Below, piece after piece: positions 43,982-51,737 of a DNA stretch of 64,000 bases (position 1 is the stretch's first letter; every line of letters starts with the position of its first letter). Source of the DNA: Kiritimatiellales bacterium. GTDB lineage: Bacteria > Verrucomicrobiota > Kiritimatiellia > Kiritimatiellales > Pontiellaceae. The translations under genes were made by a program, and so were the position numbers. The stretch lies in assembly GCA_003246265.1 (NCBI GenBank), contig QKAU01000006.1:124001-188000 (forward strand), in the 5' to 3' direction. The notes beneath the pieces are model-generated. The model searched no databases, was not told the DNA's origin, and saw nothing but the letters and a program-made list of their open reading frames with translations.

Positions 43982-44015
43982 AAAAAAACCAATGCCCGGA
44001 CACGCCGGACATTGG
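43982..44015 (-). terminator. Intrinsic terminator after the 54-aa gene
   Basis: Read leftwards, CCAATGTCCGG and CCGGGCATTGG pair with one mismatch around a five-base loop and are followed by seven T. It separates the unknown 44-46 kb cluster from the DUF1549 trio. Confidence 0.88.
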
Positions 44016-44040
44016 TCGTCACAGGGAAAGTCGATCCGGC

Positions 44041-44205
44041 CTAGAGCGCGCCTTGCAGCGCCTCGACGGCGCGGGCGATCGCATCCTTGGCCTCTACGGC
44101 TTCCTTCGCACTCTTGATGATCTTCTCGTAGTCCGCGATGGGCATCTGAACCGCGATGGCGTTGCCACTGCCATCGTAGAAGATCTGTACGTTGTCCTTT
44201 TCCAT
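44041..44205 (-). CDS. 54-residue protein, Phd-like C-terminal module
   Basis: Small gene below usual length cut-offs. ATG 44205 is preceded by AAGGAGC at good spacing, the frame ends in TAG, and a strong terminator follows 25 bases on. The protein starts MEKDNVQIFYDGSGNAIAVQ and continues MPIADYEKIIKSAKEAVEAK, ending in a predicted helix. The strand-then-DYE-helix pattern recalls the second half of Phd/YefM antitoxins, but no toxin gene is adjacent and the N-terminal half of that fold is missing. A related QMPxxxY stretch is found in the protein at 45373-46065. Function unknown. Confidence 0.6.
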   Translation of the reverse strand: MEKDNVQIFYDGSGNAIAVQMPIADYEKIIKSAKEAVEAKDAIARAVEALQGAL

Positions 44206-44235
44206 CACATGCTCCTTGGTTCTATTGTTTTTTTC

Positions 44236-45357
44236 CTATTTCAGTTTATTCAGCAAATCGAGATGGCCGGCGAGCCAGTCGGAATCCTTCGCCGCCTTCT
44301 TGGCCGGTGCGTCTACCGCCTTGGGTGCAGGCTGCTTCTGTTCGGGAGCCTTGGCCTCTTCTTCAACATCCAGGTCCAGGGCGACCTCAACCATGGGTTC
44401 CCGGACCATCACTCCTCCCTCGCCCCCGGCATCTATCGATCCCGAATCGTAGAGCTTGGAATCGAACTCCTGCCAGTTCATGGGATCGCCGGAGAGCTCT
44501 TCGTCGGCCATATCGAGATCGACTTCTGCGACGGGCTCGCCGCTCTTGTCGATCTCAAGGGGGAAGAACTCCTCTTCGCGGGTCTTGCGCATGGCGACTT
44601 CACGCTTGGGCGCAGGGGCTTCCACGACCGGGACGGGCGCTACGGCCGCGATGGCCGGTGCCGCTGCGGCAGGCATTTCATCGGATTCGTCGTCGAGCGC
44701 TTCCGCCGGCATTTCAATCACCAGTTTCCCGGCCGCTTCCTGCCGGTCCGTGTCCGCCACCATCTCGGCCCGGACCTGGGCAAAGGCCGGCACGGTTGTT
44801 GGATTATGGCCGATGCCAAAGCGGCAGAGCACGGTCCAAAGCACGCCAATGATTACGCCGGCCAGAACGAAAGGAAAGACGACGGCATTGAGCAGGACAC
44901 CCGTACCCGCGCCGGAAACCACGCTGTTGATCACCACATCGAACACCAGCAGGGCCGCGATGATGAAGACAAAGGGAGCCTGGCCCTTTTTGAAGAAGGC
45001 CAGCCGCACCTTTGCCGTGGCATTGCCGACCGCCAGGGCACCGAAGGCGCCGCAGGTCGCTCCCGACGTCGTGATTTCGGCCATGTTGACCCCCTCCATG
45101 CCGCGCACCCCCTGGAAGGCCAGGAAGCCCCCGGCCACGTAGGAGAGTGCCACGACGAGCGGCTGAAGCCCCAGCAGGGTTGCCGCCCAGAGGATCGAAA
45201 CCACGTTCAGCACCACGAAGGCACTCCACATAGGCGCGTTTTCAACCGGACCAATCGATCCGCGGCTCGCGGCGATCCACACGCCCAGGTTGGCCGCCAC
45301 AAGGACCGCACCGGCGGCCAGCACCATCGCCAGATGTCTATTTGCACTGTTTTTCAT
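44236..45357 (-). CDS. Membrane protein with long acidic cytoplasmic tail
   Basis: A 373-residue protein of unknown function. Four to five hydrophobic segments lie in the first 185 residues: about 9-31, 43-82 as a pair, 122-142 and 150-182. The remaining 190 residues are hydrophilic, rich in Ala, Pro and Glu, and strongly acidic (EEEFFPLEIDKSGEPVAEVD, MADEELSGDPMNW, VEVALDLDVEEEAK), ending with an amphipathic SDWLAGHLDLLNKLK. The tail has the look of a docking or scaffolding region. It starts 15 bases after the 230-aa gene and ends about 30 before the 54-aa gene, so the three form one operon. Confidence 0.7.
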   Translation of the reverse strand: MKNSANRHLAMVLAAGAVLVAANLGVWIAASRGSIGPVENAPMWSAFVVLNVVSILWAATLLGLQPLVVALSYVAGGFLAFQGVRGMEGVNMAEITTSGATCGAFGALAVGNATAKVRLAFFKKGQAPFVFIIAALLVFDVVINSVVSGAGTGVLLNAVVFPFVLAGVIIGVLWTVLCRFGIGHNPTTVPAFAQVRAEMVADTDRQEAAGKLVIEMPAEALDDESDEMPAAAAPAIAAVAPVPVVEAPAPKREVAMRKTREEEFFPLEIDKSGEPVAEVDLDMADEELSGDPMNWQEFDSKLYDSGSIDAGGEGGVMVREPMVEVALDLDVEEEAKAPEQKQPAPKAVDAPAKKAAKDSDWLAGHLDLLNKLK

Positions 45358-45372
45358 CTTCCGCTCCCTTCC

Positions 45373-46065
45373 CTAGTTCGTGGCCATGCCGACTTCCGCG
45401 AAGGCCTTGGCCAGTACGCCGAGCATCGTGTTGTTCAAATCGTCGACCTGTACGCTGACCAGGCTCCTGCGGCTGGAAAGCACCCTGGGAACTTCGCAGA
45501 AATCCAGGGACTTCAGGCACTCGGTGTAGCGGGGATCCAGCGAAATCCGCAAATGTCCCTCGCTCAGGTCCACAAATGCGAATTCTTCCCATTCATCGTA
45601 GTTCCACAGGCTGCATACGCCATCCTTCATGGTCACACGCACCGTGCCGCCACAGCTGTCGTTCAGGCAGGTGTAGTACTGCTTGAAAACGTTGAACAGG
45701 CGGCCCGATTCATCGAGCTTGTTGAAATGCTGCGCAATATCCTTCTTGATCGGTGGAACATCGAACCCTTCGGCCTTGGTGCGCTCAGCGGCCGGCTTGC
45801 TTTCGGACCTGGGTTCGGGCGCAGGCGCGGCGGCAGGTTTTGCCGGCGAAGCCTTCGGAGTCTCCTTTCTGGCTGGCTGCGCGGTGGCCACGGGTACTTC
45901 CGTGCCTGCGCTTCCATCCAGGACGCGCAGGAGCTTGGAAACCACGGAATCGCGCAAAGCCTCGAGGCGCTGGCGCTCCTCTACCTTCTCCATCAGCTGC
46001 AGGTATTCCCCGTACGGCATCTGGAGCTTCCCATTGCTCTTCGATATCAGATATGTGTTGCTCAT
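45373..46065 (-). CDS. 230-residue protein of unknown function, two domains joined by a Pro/Ala linker
   Basis: First gene of a three-gene operon. The N-terminal 55 residues (LQMPYGEYLQLMEKVEERQR) form a strand plus helix like the module of the 54-aa protein. A low-complexity Lys/Pro/Ala linker covers about 58-103. The C-terminal domain (about 105-230) is mixed alpha/beta, with RLFNVFKQYYTCLNDSCGGT, MKDGVCSLWNYDEWEEFAFV and SLVSVQVDDLNNTMLGVLAK. CLNDSC could bind a metal or form a disulfide. It has no signal peptide, so it is cytoplasmic. The start is ATG 46065; 19 upstream in-frame residues are rejected. Confidence 0.65.
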   Translation of the reverse strand: MSNTYLISKSNGKLQMPYGEYLQLMEKVEERQRLEALRDSVVSKLLRVLDGSAGTEVPVATAQPARKETPKASPAKPAAAPAPEPRSESKPAAERTKAEGFDVPPIKKDIAQHFNKLDESGRLFNVFKQYYTCLNDSCGGTVRVTMKDGVCSLWNYDEWEEFAFVDLSEGHLRISLDPRYTECLKSLDFCEVPRVLSSRRSLVSVQVDDLNNTMLGVLAKAFAEVGMATN

Positions 46066-46269: not shown

Positions 46270-47403
46270 ATGATGAAAAACCATGTAAACAGACTGGTCG
46301 GCCTGATCCTGGTGGCGAGTGCCACCTGCCAGCCGACCCTACATGCGCGCGACATCAACTACTGGCGGGGCGACGAATCGGGGGCGAACTGGAACGATCC
46401 CTACAAATGGAAGCTCAAGCATCCCCCTGCGGGTGACGAGGCGGCCCATTTCCGGGAACGCAACAGTCTAGTCAACATCAACAACAACATCTATCTCAAC
46501 AACGGCATGCACCTCTATGGCGAGGAGCTCTGCCTGCGCGGCAACGGCACCATCAACCTGCCCAGCGCCGTCCCCCACGAACGAACCGTCAACGTGCCTG
46601 CTTCGGCGGACGGGCAATCGACGCTCGTCCTGGCGGACAACCTGTCGCTGAACGGCCGGCTATCCCTCGCGGCCAAGGGCTTCGGCACCGCGGACTGCAC
46701 GGGCATCCTGGTGCTCAAGGACCGGGCAACCATTACCGGCGCGCTCTGCATCGGCAACGCGGGCCGGGGCAACGGGCAGGTCGTCATCCAGGACAATGCC
46801 ACCTATCGTGTAACCGATCTGGAGTTGTCCACCGACGCCCTGAAGGGCGGCTCGGCGGTCATCAGCGTATCAGGTGGCACGCTGCGCATTGAAACCAAGG
46901 AAAATCCCTTCGAGGTGTTCCTGGCCGATGCCAGCCGCAAAATCGTCCTCGGCGACGCCGGCACCCTGCGCATCGAATCCAGCCTGCCCACGGCCGTGAA
47001 GCAGCAGATGATCAAGCAGATGATCGTCAACAAACGCCTGGTCGCAGCCCCGGGATTCCGGCTCACGCCCCCCGTCATCAACGAAAAGATGCTGGTCGCC
47101 ATCGCGGAAGACAGCAGCAGTCCTTCCAGCTACGATTCGGAAGAGGCGCTGCTCGCCGCGATCGGCAACCCCACCATGCAAATCGCCAGCATCCAGAAGC
47201 CCGCGCTGGCAAACGGCACGATGGTACGCATTTCCGCCATGGCCCCTGCGCCGGACGCGGCTCCCCAGCCGGCCACCACCGCATCCATTCCCGCGATCTC
47301 CGAAACATCCCAGGGCGGCACCAGGCTGGCCGGGTATGTGGTCTTCCTGGGTACGGCGTTGCTGGCGCTGCGCCGCATGCCCGATGCGGAAACCGCGGGA
47401 TAG
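46270..47403 (+). CDS. Exported beta-rich protein with C-terminal membrane tail
   Basis: A 377-residue secreted protein. The start is ATG 46270 with GGAGG nine bases upstream; an in-frame GTG at 46258 is less likely. A signal peptide (RLVGLILVASATCQPTLHA) is followed by INYWRGDESGANWNDPYKWK, a start seen in autotransporter-like beta-helix proteins of PVC bacteria. Short glycine-rich strands follow (LVLKDRATITGALCIGNAG, VVIQDNATYRV, ISVSGGTLRIE). The C-terminus is a hydrophobic helix then arginines (LAGYVVFLGTALLALRRMP), like a PEP-CTERM-style sorting tail but without the PEP motif. Probably surface-displayed. Function unknown. Confidence 0.65.
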   Translation: MMKNHVNRLVGLILVASATCQPTLHARDINYWRGDESGANWNDPYKWKLKHPPAGDEAAHFRERNSLVNINNNIYLNNGMHLYGEELCLRGNGTINLPSAVPHERTVNVPASADGQSTLVLADNLSLNGRLSLAAKGFGTADCTGILVLKDRATITGALCIGNAGRGNGQVVIQDNATYRVTDLELSTDALKGGSAVISVSGGTLRIETKENPFEVFLADASRKIVLGDAGTLRIESSLPTAVKQQMIKQMIVNKRLVAAPGFRLTPPVINEKMLVAIAEDSSSPSSYDSEEALLAAIGNPTMQIASIQKPALANGTMVRISAMAPAPDAAPQPATTASIPAISETSQGGTRLAGYVVFLGTALLALRRMPDAETAG

Positions 47404-47546: not shown

Positions 47547-50500
47547 ATGTTTATGAGTGATATCCGGATCCATGGTCTTCCTCTTCGCCGGTGGATTGCG
47601 CCCGTCCTGCTGGCCACCACCTCCACCCTGCCGCACCCCTGCGCTGCGCAACCCGCCCTCGCCGCCGTCGTACCGGTCGAAATGAGCTGGCCGGCCTATG
47701 TGCTCATCGGGGGCTTGCTGATCTTTTCAACCATTCTCCTCTTCGTGATCCAGCAGCGCTACCGCATAGCCAGCCGGGCCCTCAAGGATGTTACCACGGA
47801 ACTTGGTTCCACGCGCCATCGTCTGGTCGAGACCGGACAGGAGCTGGAACAGGCCAAGAACGAGCTCAAGGCAACGGCAAGCCGGTACCAGGGCATCCTG
47901 TTCGATGCCGAAGTCGGCATCTTCCAGATGGATCTCGACGGAAAATGTACCTATATCAACACCGCCCTGCAGAACCTCTCCGGCCTCTATCCGAAGAAGG
48001 CGTTCAAGGAAGGACTGCAAACCGCCATCCATCCCGAGGACCGTGCGCGCTTCGACGAGGCATGGAGCGTGTTTGCGAAAGGATCCGATCCGTTTGAACT
48101 GACCTTCCGGTTCCACCACGGCAAGGGCGCCGATGTCCACGTCGCCTGCCGGGCCGGACGAATTCTCAATGCGAAGAAGGAGGTCGAAAGCTACATCGGA
48201 TGGATTGGCGACGTCTCCGCATTCCATGGTGAAAAACGGGCGCAACAGGCCATCACCCATCGCTACGAGCATTTCGTGGCGCAGACGGTCGAGGGCTTCT
48301 ACCAGCTTTCCGCCACCACGCCGATCCCCCTCTCCGCCTCGCCGGCCAAAATGGCTGAAAACATCATGGCCTCCATGGTTCTGTCCGATTGCAACGATAC
48401 CTTCTCCGCCATGTACGGCGCCATCCCCTCCGACCTGGCCGGAAAGACCATCGGGGAGTTGAAGGGGGGATGCGGACCGTTCGGCAACGCCGAATCCGTA
48501 AAGGCTTTCGTGGAATCGGAATACAAACTGATCGATTGTGAAACCACTCGGCAGGATGGAAGTGGAAACCACGTCAACCTGCTCAACCATGCCGTAGGTC
48601 TCGTCGAGGACAATAAGCTGGTGGCCATTTGGGGATCGCAGCTCAATATCAGCCAGCAAAAGCGCGAGCGCGCCGAGCTCTCCAGCCAGGTCCATTTCAT
48701 GCAGCGCATCCTCAACACCCTGCCGGCCGATGTCCACGTCAAGGACACCCGTTGCCGCTACCTCTATGCGAGCAAAAAGCTGGCCGACCGCACCGGCATT
48801 CCCCAGGCCGACTGGATCGGCAAGACCATATTCGAAGTGCTGCCGGCCACCCCGCGCGACCACGACCACAACGCCATTGAAACGATGAAGTCCGGCAAGC
48901 TCAACCGCACGGAGCGCGCCTACGAAGCACGGGGCAAGGCGGGTTGGATGGAAACGATCCAGATCCCGATGGTGTCGGACAAGGGGCTGGTCGAGGGCGT
49001 GATCGGGCTTTCGCTGGAGATTTCCGACCGCAAGAAGAAGGAAGAGGAGATCCGCCAGCAGGCCCGCCAGCTCGAATCGATGCTCAAGGAGCGCACCGAG
49101 GAACTGCGCACCTCGGAGAACGAGTGCAGCAAGACCGCCTCCACCCTTTCGGACACCCTCCGCAAGCTGCGGATTGCCGAAGCGCAACAGTCGGCACGCG
49201 AACAAGCGTTCCAGGAGCAGCTCGCGGAGCGCAAACGCATCGAGGAAACCCTGCGCCGGAGCGAGGAGAGCCTGCTCGAAAAGCAGAAATTGTTGGAAGG
49301 GTCGCTCTCCCAGCGGCTCGACGAACTGGCCCGGGAAACCGACAAGCGCAAGAAATGGGAAGAGCTGCTCGCCATCAAGGAGGACGAGCTGCGCAAAATC
49401 GAGGACCATGTTTCGGGCCTCCAGGAAGTGCTCGACCAGGAAACCGCCCTCAAGCGCCAGGCCGAAGCCAACCTCGAAGCCAACCGGATGGAACTCGAGA
49501 AGTACCGCCGCGAAGCGCATTCGCTGTCGGAAGGGCGCGAAAAGGAGCTGGCCGCGTTGGAAGCGAAGCACGATAAGGCGTTCAAGGGCGAATCCGATGC
49601 CAGGACCAGGGCCGAAGAACGGCTGAAGAATGCCGAGGGGCAGTTGCACCAGGCCCAGGAGAAGATCCGCAAGCTCACGGAGCGCCACGCCTTCGAACTC
49701 GAGCAGGAGGTGGCCGAACGCAAGGCCGCCGCCGAAAAGCTGATCCAAAACATGGAAGAACTGGACAGCCTCAAGCAGCAGTTCAACGAGCGGATCGAGA
49801 CGGAAACCAAAACGATCAAGAACGAGTTGGCCCAGCGGCAGATCCGCGAGAAGGCGGTACGCCAGCACGAAAAGGAACTGGAAAAGCGCATCAAGGAACT
49901 GGAAGAGGTCCTCCAGGCGAAAACCCGCGAATATGCCGATCAGATCCAGGCGCGCGAAGGCGCCGAACTGCACAGCAGGCAGGTCGAGCAGCGTCTCGAG
50001 CTGATGGGTCGCCGGCAGCAGGAACTGGTTGCGCGGGAAACCCAGAAGCTCAACCTCAGCATCGCGGAGATCCGCCTGCAGGAGGTCAAGCTCCGCAAGC
50101 AGGTCGGCGAACTCCAGGAACAGAAGGAATCGCTGGAGGAAACCCTGCAGCAGCGCGACGGCGAACTGGCGAAGGTCACCCGCGAGCATGGCAAGGTCGA
50201 GTCCTCCCTGGCCGAGGCGCAGGCCGAGCTCAAGCGGGTCGCCAGCGACCACTCCCAGCTCCTCGCCCGCGAAACCCAGACGCTCCGCCGGCAGATCGAC
50301 GCGCTGCACGCCAGCGAGAACGGCCTCAAGGGGCAGATCGAGACCCTGAACAAGGAGAAGCAGGAATTGGAGGGCAGCCTCAAGAACCGCAGCACCGACC
50401 TCTCCAAGGCCGCCACCGAATACCGCAAGGTGGTCGACGCCTACAAGGCGCTGCAGGATCGGCTGAAGCAACACGTCGAAGAACAGGATGCCGCCATTGC

Positions 50501-51737
50501 CCGCAAGACGGATTCCCTGCGCAAGGAGATCGGCCAACTGGACGAAACCGGCAAGGTGCTGCGCGCCAAGGAGGCCGAACTGTCCGTTAGGATTGACGAG
50601 CAGCAAACCGCGATCGGCAAGCTGACCGACAACCTGAAGGCCGAAACCGCCAAGCGCGAGGCAAGGGAAAAGGATCTCGCCCGGTTGCAGTCCGAACTTG
50701 AATTCGCCCAGAGCAGCGCCGAAAAGCAGCTACGCGACAAGAGCCGCGAACTCGAAATGCAGCTCCGCGAATACCGGCAGGCCGAGGAGGGTCTGAAGCA
50801 GCAGCTGTCCAAGGCGGAACAGACGCTCAAGCAGCAGACGGCCGCGATGGAAACGCTGCGCCTCGAACGCGAGCACGCCATCAAGAAGACGGTCGAAGTC
50901 GACCGCATCGTCGACACGCTCAAGAAGGACCACCAGGCGGAACTCAAGAAGACCCTCGCCGAAATGCGCGAAACCAGCCGCATGAATTCCGCGCTGGTCG
51001 ACGAATTGAACGACGCCATCCAGGAGGCGCTCAACCCGGTCATCAAGACCACGCTGATCATGGAAAAGGCCGAGAACCTCAGCGCCGAGCAGCGCCGGAA
51101 CCTCGACAACGTCAACCACAACTGCAGGACACTGGTCGACACGATGAACTACCGCAGCGAACTCACCCACCTCGCCGACGGCGACGGGGCCCTGCAGAAG
51201 GACGACTGCGACCTCCACCAGCTCATGGCCGGCATCGACAAGCAGTTCGGCCACCGGGCCGAAACCAAGAAGCTCTTCTTCGCCGTCAGCTTTGCCCAGT
51301 ACCAGGCGGCGAACAACGTGCCGAAACTGGTCCAGACGGACGAGCGCAAGCTGCGCAAGATCCTTTCGATCCTCGTGGGCTACGCCGTTGAACAGACCGA
51401 CAAGGGCCGGCTGGGCCTGCACGCCACGCGCAAGCCGGACTCCGGCAACGGCATTGCCGTAGCGTTCGAACTCGCCTACACGCCGCGGGACGCGCGGGAC
51501 CGGCTGCTCGACTCGATCTTCCAGTCCGGTGATGCCGAGGGCACGGTCGACCTGAAGTACGGCCTGACGCTGGCGCGGCGCTACATCCGCATGATGGACG
51601 GCGAAGTGGCCCTCGAATACCGCGACAAGGGCGTGACGGCCATCGTACTTCAGTTTCCTTTCCGGAAGGCGGGCGGCGGCACCGGCGCGGCCGGGCAGGA
51701 TGGAGCGGTCGACGAGAAGAAGGCCGGCGCGGCCTAG
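47547..51737 (+). CDS. Giant PAS / coiled-coil / degenerate histidine-kinase-like membrane protein
   Basis: A 1396-residue protein. A signal-like N-terminus is followed by one membrane segment (about 48-68). Three PAS-like domains cover about 110-500, each with a PAS-type start such as GIFQMDLDGKCTYIN or VHVKDTRCRYLYASK. Residues about 500-1140 are an almost unbroken coiled coil rich in Glu, Lys, Gln and Arg. The C-terminus is laid out like HisKA plus HATPase. The H-box region reads SALVDELNDAIQEALNP, with no phosphorylatable His. The N-box reads TDERKLRKILSILVGYAVEQ, without the key Asn, and only a weak YGLTLARRYI replaces the G2 box. It is probably a sensor-like scaffold and not a kinase. 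No response regulator is nearby. Confidence 0.75.
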   Translation: MFMSDIRIHGLPLRRWIAPVLLATTSTLPHPCAAQPALAAVVPVEMSWPAYVLIGGLLIFSTILLFVIQQRYRIASRALKDVTTELGSTRHRLVETGQELEQAKNELKATASRYQGILFDAEVGIFQMDLDGKCTYINTALQNLSGLYPKKAFKEGLQTAIHPEDRARFDEAWSVFAKGSDPFELTFRFHHGKGADVHVACRAGRILNAKKEVESYIGWIGDVSAFHGEKRAQQAITHRYEHFVAQTVEGFYQLSATTPIPLSASPAKMAENIMASMVLSDCNDTFSAMYGAIPSDLAGKTIGELKGGCGPFGNAESVKAFVESEYKLIDCETTRQDGSGNHVNLLNHAVGLVEDNKLVAIWGSQLNISQQKRERAELSSQVHFMQRILNTLPADVHVKDTRCRYLYASKKLADRTGIPQADWIGKTIFEVLPATPRDHDHNAIETMKSGKLNRTERAYEARGKAGWMETIQIPMVSDKGLVEGVIGLSLEISDRKKKEEEIRQQARQLESMLKERTEELRTSENECSKTASTLSDTLRKLRIAEAQQSAREQAFQEQLAERKRIEETLRRSEESLLEKQKLLEGSLSQRLDELARETDKRKKWEELLAIKEDELRKIEDHVSGLQEVLDQETALKRQAEANLEANRMELEKYRREAHSLSEGREKELAALEAKHDKAFKGESDARTRAEERLKNAEGQLHQAQEKIRKLTERHAFELEQEVAERKAAAEKLIQNMEELDSLKQQFNERIETETKTIKNELAQRQIREKAVRQHEKELEKRIKELEEVLQAKTREYADQIQAREGAELHSRQVEQRLELMGRRQQELVARETQKLNLSIAEIRLQEVKLRKQVGELQEQKESLEETLQQRDGELAKVTREHGKVESSLAEAQAELKRVASDHSQLLARETQTLRRQIDALHASENGLKGQIETLNKEKQELEGSLKNRSTDLSKAATEYRKVVDAYKALQDRLKQHVEEQDAAIARKTDSLRKEIGQLDETGKVLRAKEAELSVRIDEQQTAIGKLTDNLKAETAKREAREKDLARLQSELEFAQSSAEKQLRDKSRELEMQLREYRQAEEGLKQQLSKAEQTLKQQTAAMETLRLEREHAIKKTVEVDRIVDTLKKDHQAELKKTLAEMRETSRMNSALVDELNDAIQEALNPVIKTTLIMEKAENLSAEQRRNLDNVNHNCRTLVDTMNYRSELTHLADGDGALQKDDCDLHQLMAGIDKQFGHRAETKKLFFAVSFAQYQAANNVPKLVQTDERKLRKILSILVGYAVEQTDKGRLGLHATRKPDSGNGIAVAFELAYTPRDARDRLLDSIFQSGDAEGTVDLKYGLTLARRYIRMMDGEVALEYRDKGVTAIVLQFPFRKAGGGTGAAGQDGAVDEKKAGAA

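Follow-up and report, generated by a model that had tools for sequence, protein, structure and literature searches.

This locus raises the question of why a short protein module should occur twice in one operon, once as a protein of its own and once at the head of a larger protein, on either side of a gene for a membrane protein. The window (the whole stretch of 64,000 nucleotides that was analysed, from a Kiritimatiellales bacterium) carries three genes, here called A, B and C (Table 1), which are arranged in tandem on the minus strand in the order A-B-C with a 15-base gap between A and B and a 30-base gap between B and C. A three-gene operon had been claimed here by the sequence-only reading, an earlier interpretation made from the DNA letters, and all three reading frames were found at the coordinates claimed, on the minus strand. 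An intrinsic terminator follows C; the scan found one such structure against a mean of 2.3 in shuffles of the region, and the assignment rests on its position and stem length. The listed GTG start of the downstream DUF1549 frame (44022) falls at this terminator, and the true start of the DUF1549 gene is thus very likely later, in a separate transcription unit. The cluster of DUF1549, DUF1501 and PPC genes does not adjoin C in L031 or L034, nor in the 1.1 kb visible of L037; since it is not always next to C, it is not part of the A-B-C unit.

Table 1. Features of the A-B-C locus and of related module copies (window positions, except for the last row, which gives positions in other loci)
Feature	Position	Strand	Remarks
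Gene A	45373..46065	minus	230 aa; module, disordered linker and frataxin-like domain
Module in A, residues 1-52	45910..46065	minus	AlphaFold2 model; homology to C
C-terminal domain of A, residues 104-230	45376..45756	minus	YdhG/YjbR frataxin-like fold by model comparison
Gene B	44236..45357	minus	373 aa; six predicted TM helices and long acidic tail
Tail of B, residues 183-373	44239..44811	minus	mostly disordered; pLDDT < 50 over most
Tail motif FFPLEIDK, residues 264-271 of B	44545..44568	minus	conserved in alignment
C-terminal helix of B, DWLxGHLDLLNKLK, residues 360-373	44239..44280	minus	conserved; candidate docking site
Gene C	44041..44205	minus	54 aa; the module standing alone
Intrinsic terminator	43987..44017	minus	13-pair stem, then T-rich tail, directly after C
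Divergent neighbour W	46270..47403	plus	predicted signal peptide (by eye), conserved body, variable linker, single TM anchor near C-terminus
PAS - coiled coil - HATPase-like neighbour	47547..51737	plus	1396 aa; HATPase match weak
Division-cluster module copies	near 1447-1638 in L060-L065; L161-L164, L166, L171	minus in L063	

The two copies of the module had been recognised by a QMPxxxY strand-helix pattern, which is present as LQMPYGEYLQLMEKVEE from residue 14 of A and as VQMPIADYEKIIKSAKE from residue 19 of C. The homology behind the pattern is real at the level of family profiles, not from the window pair alone. Taken by themselves, the window A and C sequences show no significant similarity: with the C profile, full-length A scores -0.4 bits and its first 60 residues 1.5 bits, values that lie within the shuffle range. 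A profile of the A N-terminus matches all 15 C proteins tested at 15.0-21.8 bits, the best of 1000 shuffled C sequences reaching 7.2, and hhalign comparison of the A and C families gives a probability of 94.7 with an E-value of 5.6e-8; the alignment spans C completely (54 residues) and covers residues 1-49 of A (22% identity). BLASTP with a single C sequence recovers the A N-terminus at E 0.002-0.010 in four of 19 loci, in a single-locus search space. The reverse profile search was negative, the C profile scoring 1.2-9.8 bits against the A proteins, below the shuffle maximum of 11.6; this suggests that the A module, whose sequence is variable among orthologues, is strongly diverged and may bind another partner. 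That the QMPxxxY likeness arose by chance, as the insignificant window pair and the failed C-on-A search could be taken to mean, is nonetheless extremely improbable, and we reject it on the A-profile and hhalign tests, both with shuffles. On these family profiles we regard the homology between the A N-terminus and the whole of C as secure. The AlphaFold2 model of the A module consists of a beta hairpin (strands 5-7 and 14-17) followed by a helix (18-49), and by alignment to A the fold of C is presumably the same. A PDB sequence search with A and C as queries returned nothing significant. One weak module match lies inside a histidine-kinase-like protein (L160, genome G005) and was judged to be chance.

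The earlier suggestion that the pattern recalls the second half of Phd antitoxins is borne out in part of the profile and at low scores. Pfam Phd/YefM matches 13 of the 15 C proteins weakly; the three members with scores given reach 13.4-15.8 bits, far under the cut-off of 29.8, and align to profile positions 32-52 or 32-58 of 74. The Pfam RelB-like family (PF18506) does better, matching 15 of 15 with a best E-value of 5.9e-7; window C scores 26.4 bits against a family cut-off of 27, over positions 3-29 of 62. Neither family matched the three A N-termini tested. The only plasmid match of the module is WP_109067839.1, a 122-residue helix-turn-helix (HTH) protein of an Azospirillum plasmid, encoded by a gene that overlaps a ParE-type toxin gene at the latter's end. 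This type II antitoxin has the same hairpin-then-helix pattern in its N-terminus, residues 3-39 aligning with residues 4-40 of C at 41% identity over 37 residues. Unlike such antitoxins, C lacks a DNA-binding domain as well as a toxin partner: its 54 residues comprise the hairpin-helix part only, with no HTH or RHH family found, and no toxin family was detected in A, B or the six flanking genes scanned. Its gene moreover has a fixed place on the chromosome, in an operon that also encodes a membrane protein, and in A the module occurs a second time, joined to an unrelated domain. Since it lacks both the DNA-binding half and a toxin neighbour, C is not, judging from its sequence and surroundings, an ordinary antitoxin. 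Descent of the module from part of the type II antitoxins, or from an ancestor shared with them, appears to be the best explanation of these matches; the reading that elsewhere it belongs to an antitoxin-like protein, and that here an antitoxin segment has been put to other use, appears well supported.

The operon is lineage-specific and, in the genomes searched, restricted to one marine genus. Gene A was found in 18 of 58 relatives, all 18 being among the 28 genomes of the same genus. Of 43 genomes in the order, 17 carry gene C, every one of them A-bearing. Homologues sharing the module thus exist and occur together, which is the opposite of what would have spoken against the sequence-only reading. 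The sole A-bearing genome without C is G020, where a contig end falls inside A. Gene B is present in 18 of the 28, namely the 17 with C and G026; nine genomes of the genus have none of the three genes, and several of these are small or incomplete. The gene-neighbourhood survey that the earlier interpretation had proposed shows the order A-B-C to be identical in 16 Pontiella-group loci (A being cut by the contig start in one, L038), with gaps of 12-21 bases between A and B and 18-49 bases between B and C; in G003 a contig break within B parts A from C. In G007 gene A is divided over contigs C191 and C143 (L041 and L038) at its repetitive Pro/Glu/Gln-rich linker, probably by an assembly break.

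Profile searches of the phylum (288 genomes for A and B, 194 for C) revealed nothing convincing outside the genus. Matches to C (five genomes) and B (seven) all fall within it, as do seven of the eight genomes matched by A; the eighth, G159, was judged to be at chance level (18 bits). Thirteen loci lie in GTDB 220 contigs titled Pontiella, Pontiellaceae, Kiritimatiellales or, in one case, Verrucomicrobia, and the named matches are to Pontiella and its relatives in the Kiritimatiellota. No locus matched the viral contigs searched, nor did PADLOC defence families give a match; PHROGs gave weak matches to unknown families for A and C. A phage match, to Streptomyces phage Daubenski, had an E-value of 0.03. 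The words "toxin", "rhomboid" and "PEP-CTERM" are absent from the available part of the Pontiella paper (PMC7356697). Relative to the window sequences, C is the best conserved of the three proteins (76-87% identity, against 51-60% for A and 41-61% for B), and it is under purifying selection, with a median pN/pS of 0.115 and a maximum of 0.244 over 120 pairs.

Beyond its module, A is modelled by AlphaFold2 as a disordered linker and a confident domain (residues 108-226). By model comparison this C-terminal domain has the YdhG/YjbR frataxin-like fold. Foldseek places E. coli YjbR first and a Listeria YdhG-like protein next (E 4.3e-3 and 5.9e-3, prob 1.00); in VIA the YdhG-like/DUF1801 and YjbR structures 2oc6, 9t2w and 2fki score Z 8.4-9.8, the YdhG-like 2oc6 and 9t2w reaching 9.8 with an rmsd of 3.0 over 110-111 residues, and CyaY frataxins score 5.0-5.7. 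For B. subtilis YdhG an iron-binding or Fe-S role has been reported, namely that it interacts with IscU-type proteins and stimulates Fe-S formation (PMC10855754). A differs from these proteins in its additional N-terminal module and linker and in three invariant cysteines (Cys138, Cys151 and Cys190, 16 of 16 members). Kinship with DUF1801 by sequence is unsupported: Pfam found no YdhG/YjbR-type family in the 16 A members, and hhalign of A against 21 DUF1801 proteins gave nothing.

B was described beforehand as a membrane protein with a long acidic tail, and the description fits, the 189 residues after residue 184 containing 43 Asp and Glu against 19 Lys and Arg. In the model, six TM helices are predicted with moderate confidence, followed by a disordered tail that ends in a short helix. 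The helical part may weakly resemble the rhomboid family, in that six TM helices are shared and GlpG is the best structural match, occupying 16 of the top 20 rows in VIA (best Z 10.0, 149 residues, 4.0 A); Z values below about 13 are uninformative for helical bundles, and P-type ATPase helices reach Z 9.2 in the same list. Rhomboid identity of B is not established by any of the sequence comparisons. Foldseek returned no significant match, and Pfam did not match rhomboid PF01694 to any of 16 B members. Against 27 rhomboids hhalign gave a probability of 1.4%, and shuffled rhomboid columns scored equally high: in 600 column shuffles, 21.1 was reached by 4 of 300 and 10 of 300, and each set had no fewer than 12 of 300 above the 19.2 of the masked input, so that neither local nor global alignment rose above the shuffles. 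The Ser/His catalytic dyad of rhomboid proteases was not found in the 16 members. The His of the sixth TM helix is absent from 15 of them, the one present (L032) lying outside the recognised rhomboid motifs, and at the best-aligned position for the catalytic Ser, in an alignment that is itself not significant, 15 of 16 members have Ala and window B has Ser. From rhomboids and their pseudoproteases B is further set apart by its acidic tail. Motif registers drawn by eye on TM2, TM4 and TM6 are leads, hhalign setting another register on TM4. A few relatives carry short divergent proteins (L101, L098, L102 and L103) that we take to be rhomboids and that resemble rhombosortases by eye.

The tail of B, which from its charge would be cytosolic, ends in a helix in which L362, H365, D367 and L368 are invariant in 16 of 16 members. 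A natural deletion bears on this helix. In G026, a single draft genome that is 86% complete, B stands alone between the kinase-like gene and DUF1549 (L214, 6141-7067), without A, C or the divergent neighbour W. Its 308 residues retain the TM region along with a version of the FFPLEID motif and stop before the C-terminal helix, of which no remnant was found in other frames nearby. Because the helix is missing where A and C are missing, we consider it a candidate docking site; its loss is consistent with what docking of A or C on it would predict, and could also reflect a broader decay of the tail. The mid-tail motif GGVMVxEP is absent in L031, L032, L034, L038 and L039 despite the presence of A and C, so not every motif of the tail tracks these two genes.

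On the other side of A, the W family (L187-L203 and the window protein) has a strongly conserved TM anchor, GY[IV]xF...LRR or LRP, past an unconserved linker, and no match in Pfam or NCBIfam. W occurs in 17 of the 28 genus genomes, all of them A-bearing. The PAS/HATPase-like gene lies beyond W in 14 of 17 loci examined and also on the second contig of G007; of the other three loci, L038 and L011 end before its position and L036 has other genes there.

A third copy of the module is found in six of the 28 genus genomes, as a protein of 44-45 aa with a C-type module encoded between an ftsL-like gene and ftsI, after rsmH; these gene names are putative, being read from the sequences and the gene order and not database-derived. 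In the remaining 22 genomes no match was found. The profile of this copy compares with C at 96.6% and with A at 3.3%.

How these parts work together can be proposed tentatively, in a form that might well prove right: A, B and C would make up a complex tethered to the membrane, with the module serving A and C for pairing or competition and for docking on the B tail. B would sit in the inner membrane with its disordered acidic tail held out. A would supply a soluble domain of frataxin fold, joined through a flexible linker to the hairpin and long-helix module at the A N-terminus, and the modules of A and C would either pair together or both bind the short helix that ends the B tail. By capping, spacing or competing with A, C would set the number of A domains at the membrane. 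The data establish the operon itself, the strict co-occurrence of A with C, the homology of their modules, the fold of the A domain by model comparison and, in one genome, the lack of the terminal B helix where A and C are missing; the membrane side, the docking and the competition between A and C are the parts of this scheme that we infer. Pairing of A with C, or a docking site common to both, is consistent with their strict co-occurrence and with the helix loss in G026, and the same two observations make a meeting of A and C on the B tail the most economical account.

That A and C strictly co-occur, within a single operon, also stands against the view that the module self-associates only, forming A-A dimers or oligomers and C-C assemblies with no contact between the two, C acting elsewhere. 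The great divergence between the two modules, the conservation of C beside a variable A N-terminus and the dimeric nature of YefM-type antitoxins (as given in the available part of PMC4803016) all fit self-association, which we hold to be unlikely, if a serious contender. Those antitoxin relationships could instead mean that C acts as a small regulator, being the relic of an antitoxin and either controlling its own operon or acting on a toxin encoded elsewhere, as the profile matches and the DNA-binding relative beside ParE would allow. Against this, C covers only part of either profile, has no HTH or other DNA-binding half and is accompanied by no toxin family in A or B; it also occupies a fixed chromosomal site with conserved neighbours, not the patchy spread of a mobile element. 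A regulatory role is accordingly quite improbable.

A further alternative concerns B, which might be a rhomboid-fold pseudoprotease holding the TM anchor of W, with A and C as a cytosolic adaptor. The prevalence of GlpG among the structural matches and the six TM helices agree with this, as do the conserved anchor of W behind its unconserved linker and the distribution of W (17 of 18 A-bearing genomes and none of the other ten of the genus). The empty Foldseek search, the ATPase helices scoring nearly as high in the same list, a rhomboid profile no better than shuffled columns and the general lack of the TM6 His argue against it, and G007 has A-B-C beside the kinase-like gene but no W. We think it rather improbable. 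A still bolder reading, which strikes us as very doubtful, would have an antitoxin piece domesticated as an assembly plug: free C and the A fusion would dock on the B tail, B being a pseudo-rhomboid that keeps hold of the TM anchor in a secreted W, with a third free copy in a subclade between ftsL and ftsI. If it were true, the ftsL-ftsI copy would tie the complex to cell division.

Returning to the proposed membrane-tethered complex of A, B and C, the operon holds under purifying selection a module that has neither toxin nor DNA-binding half and of which this single membrane operon has two copies. Annotation routinely assigns small antitoxin-like proteins to toxin-antitoxin systems, and for C an annotation from profiles alone would mislead. 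If A, C and the B tail do bind one another, this would clearly exemplify the recruitment of an antitoxin segment for docking, and it would give a cultured genus of the PVC superphylum a testable membrane complex of its own.
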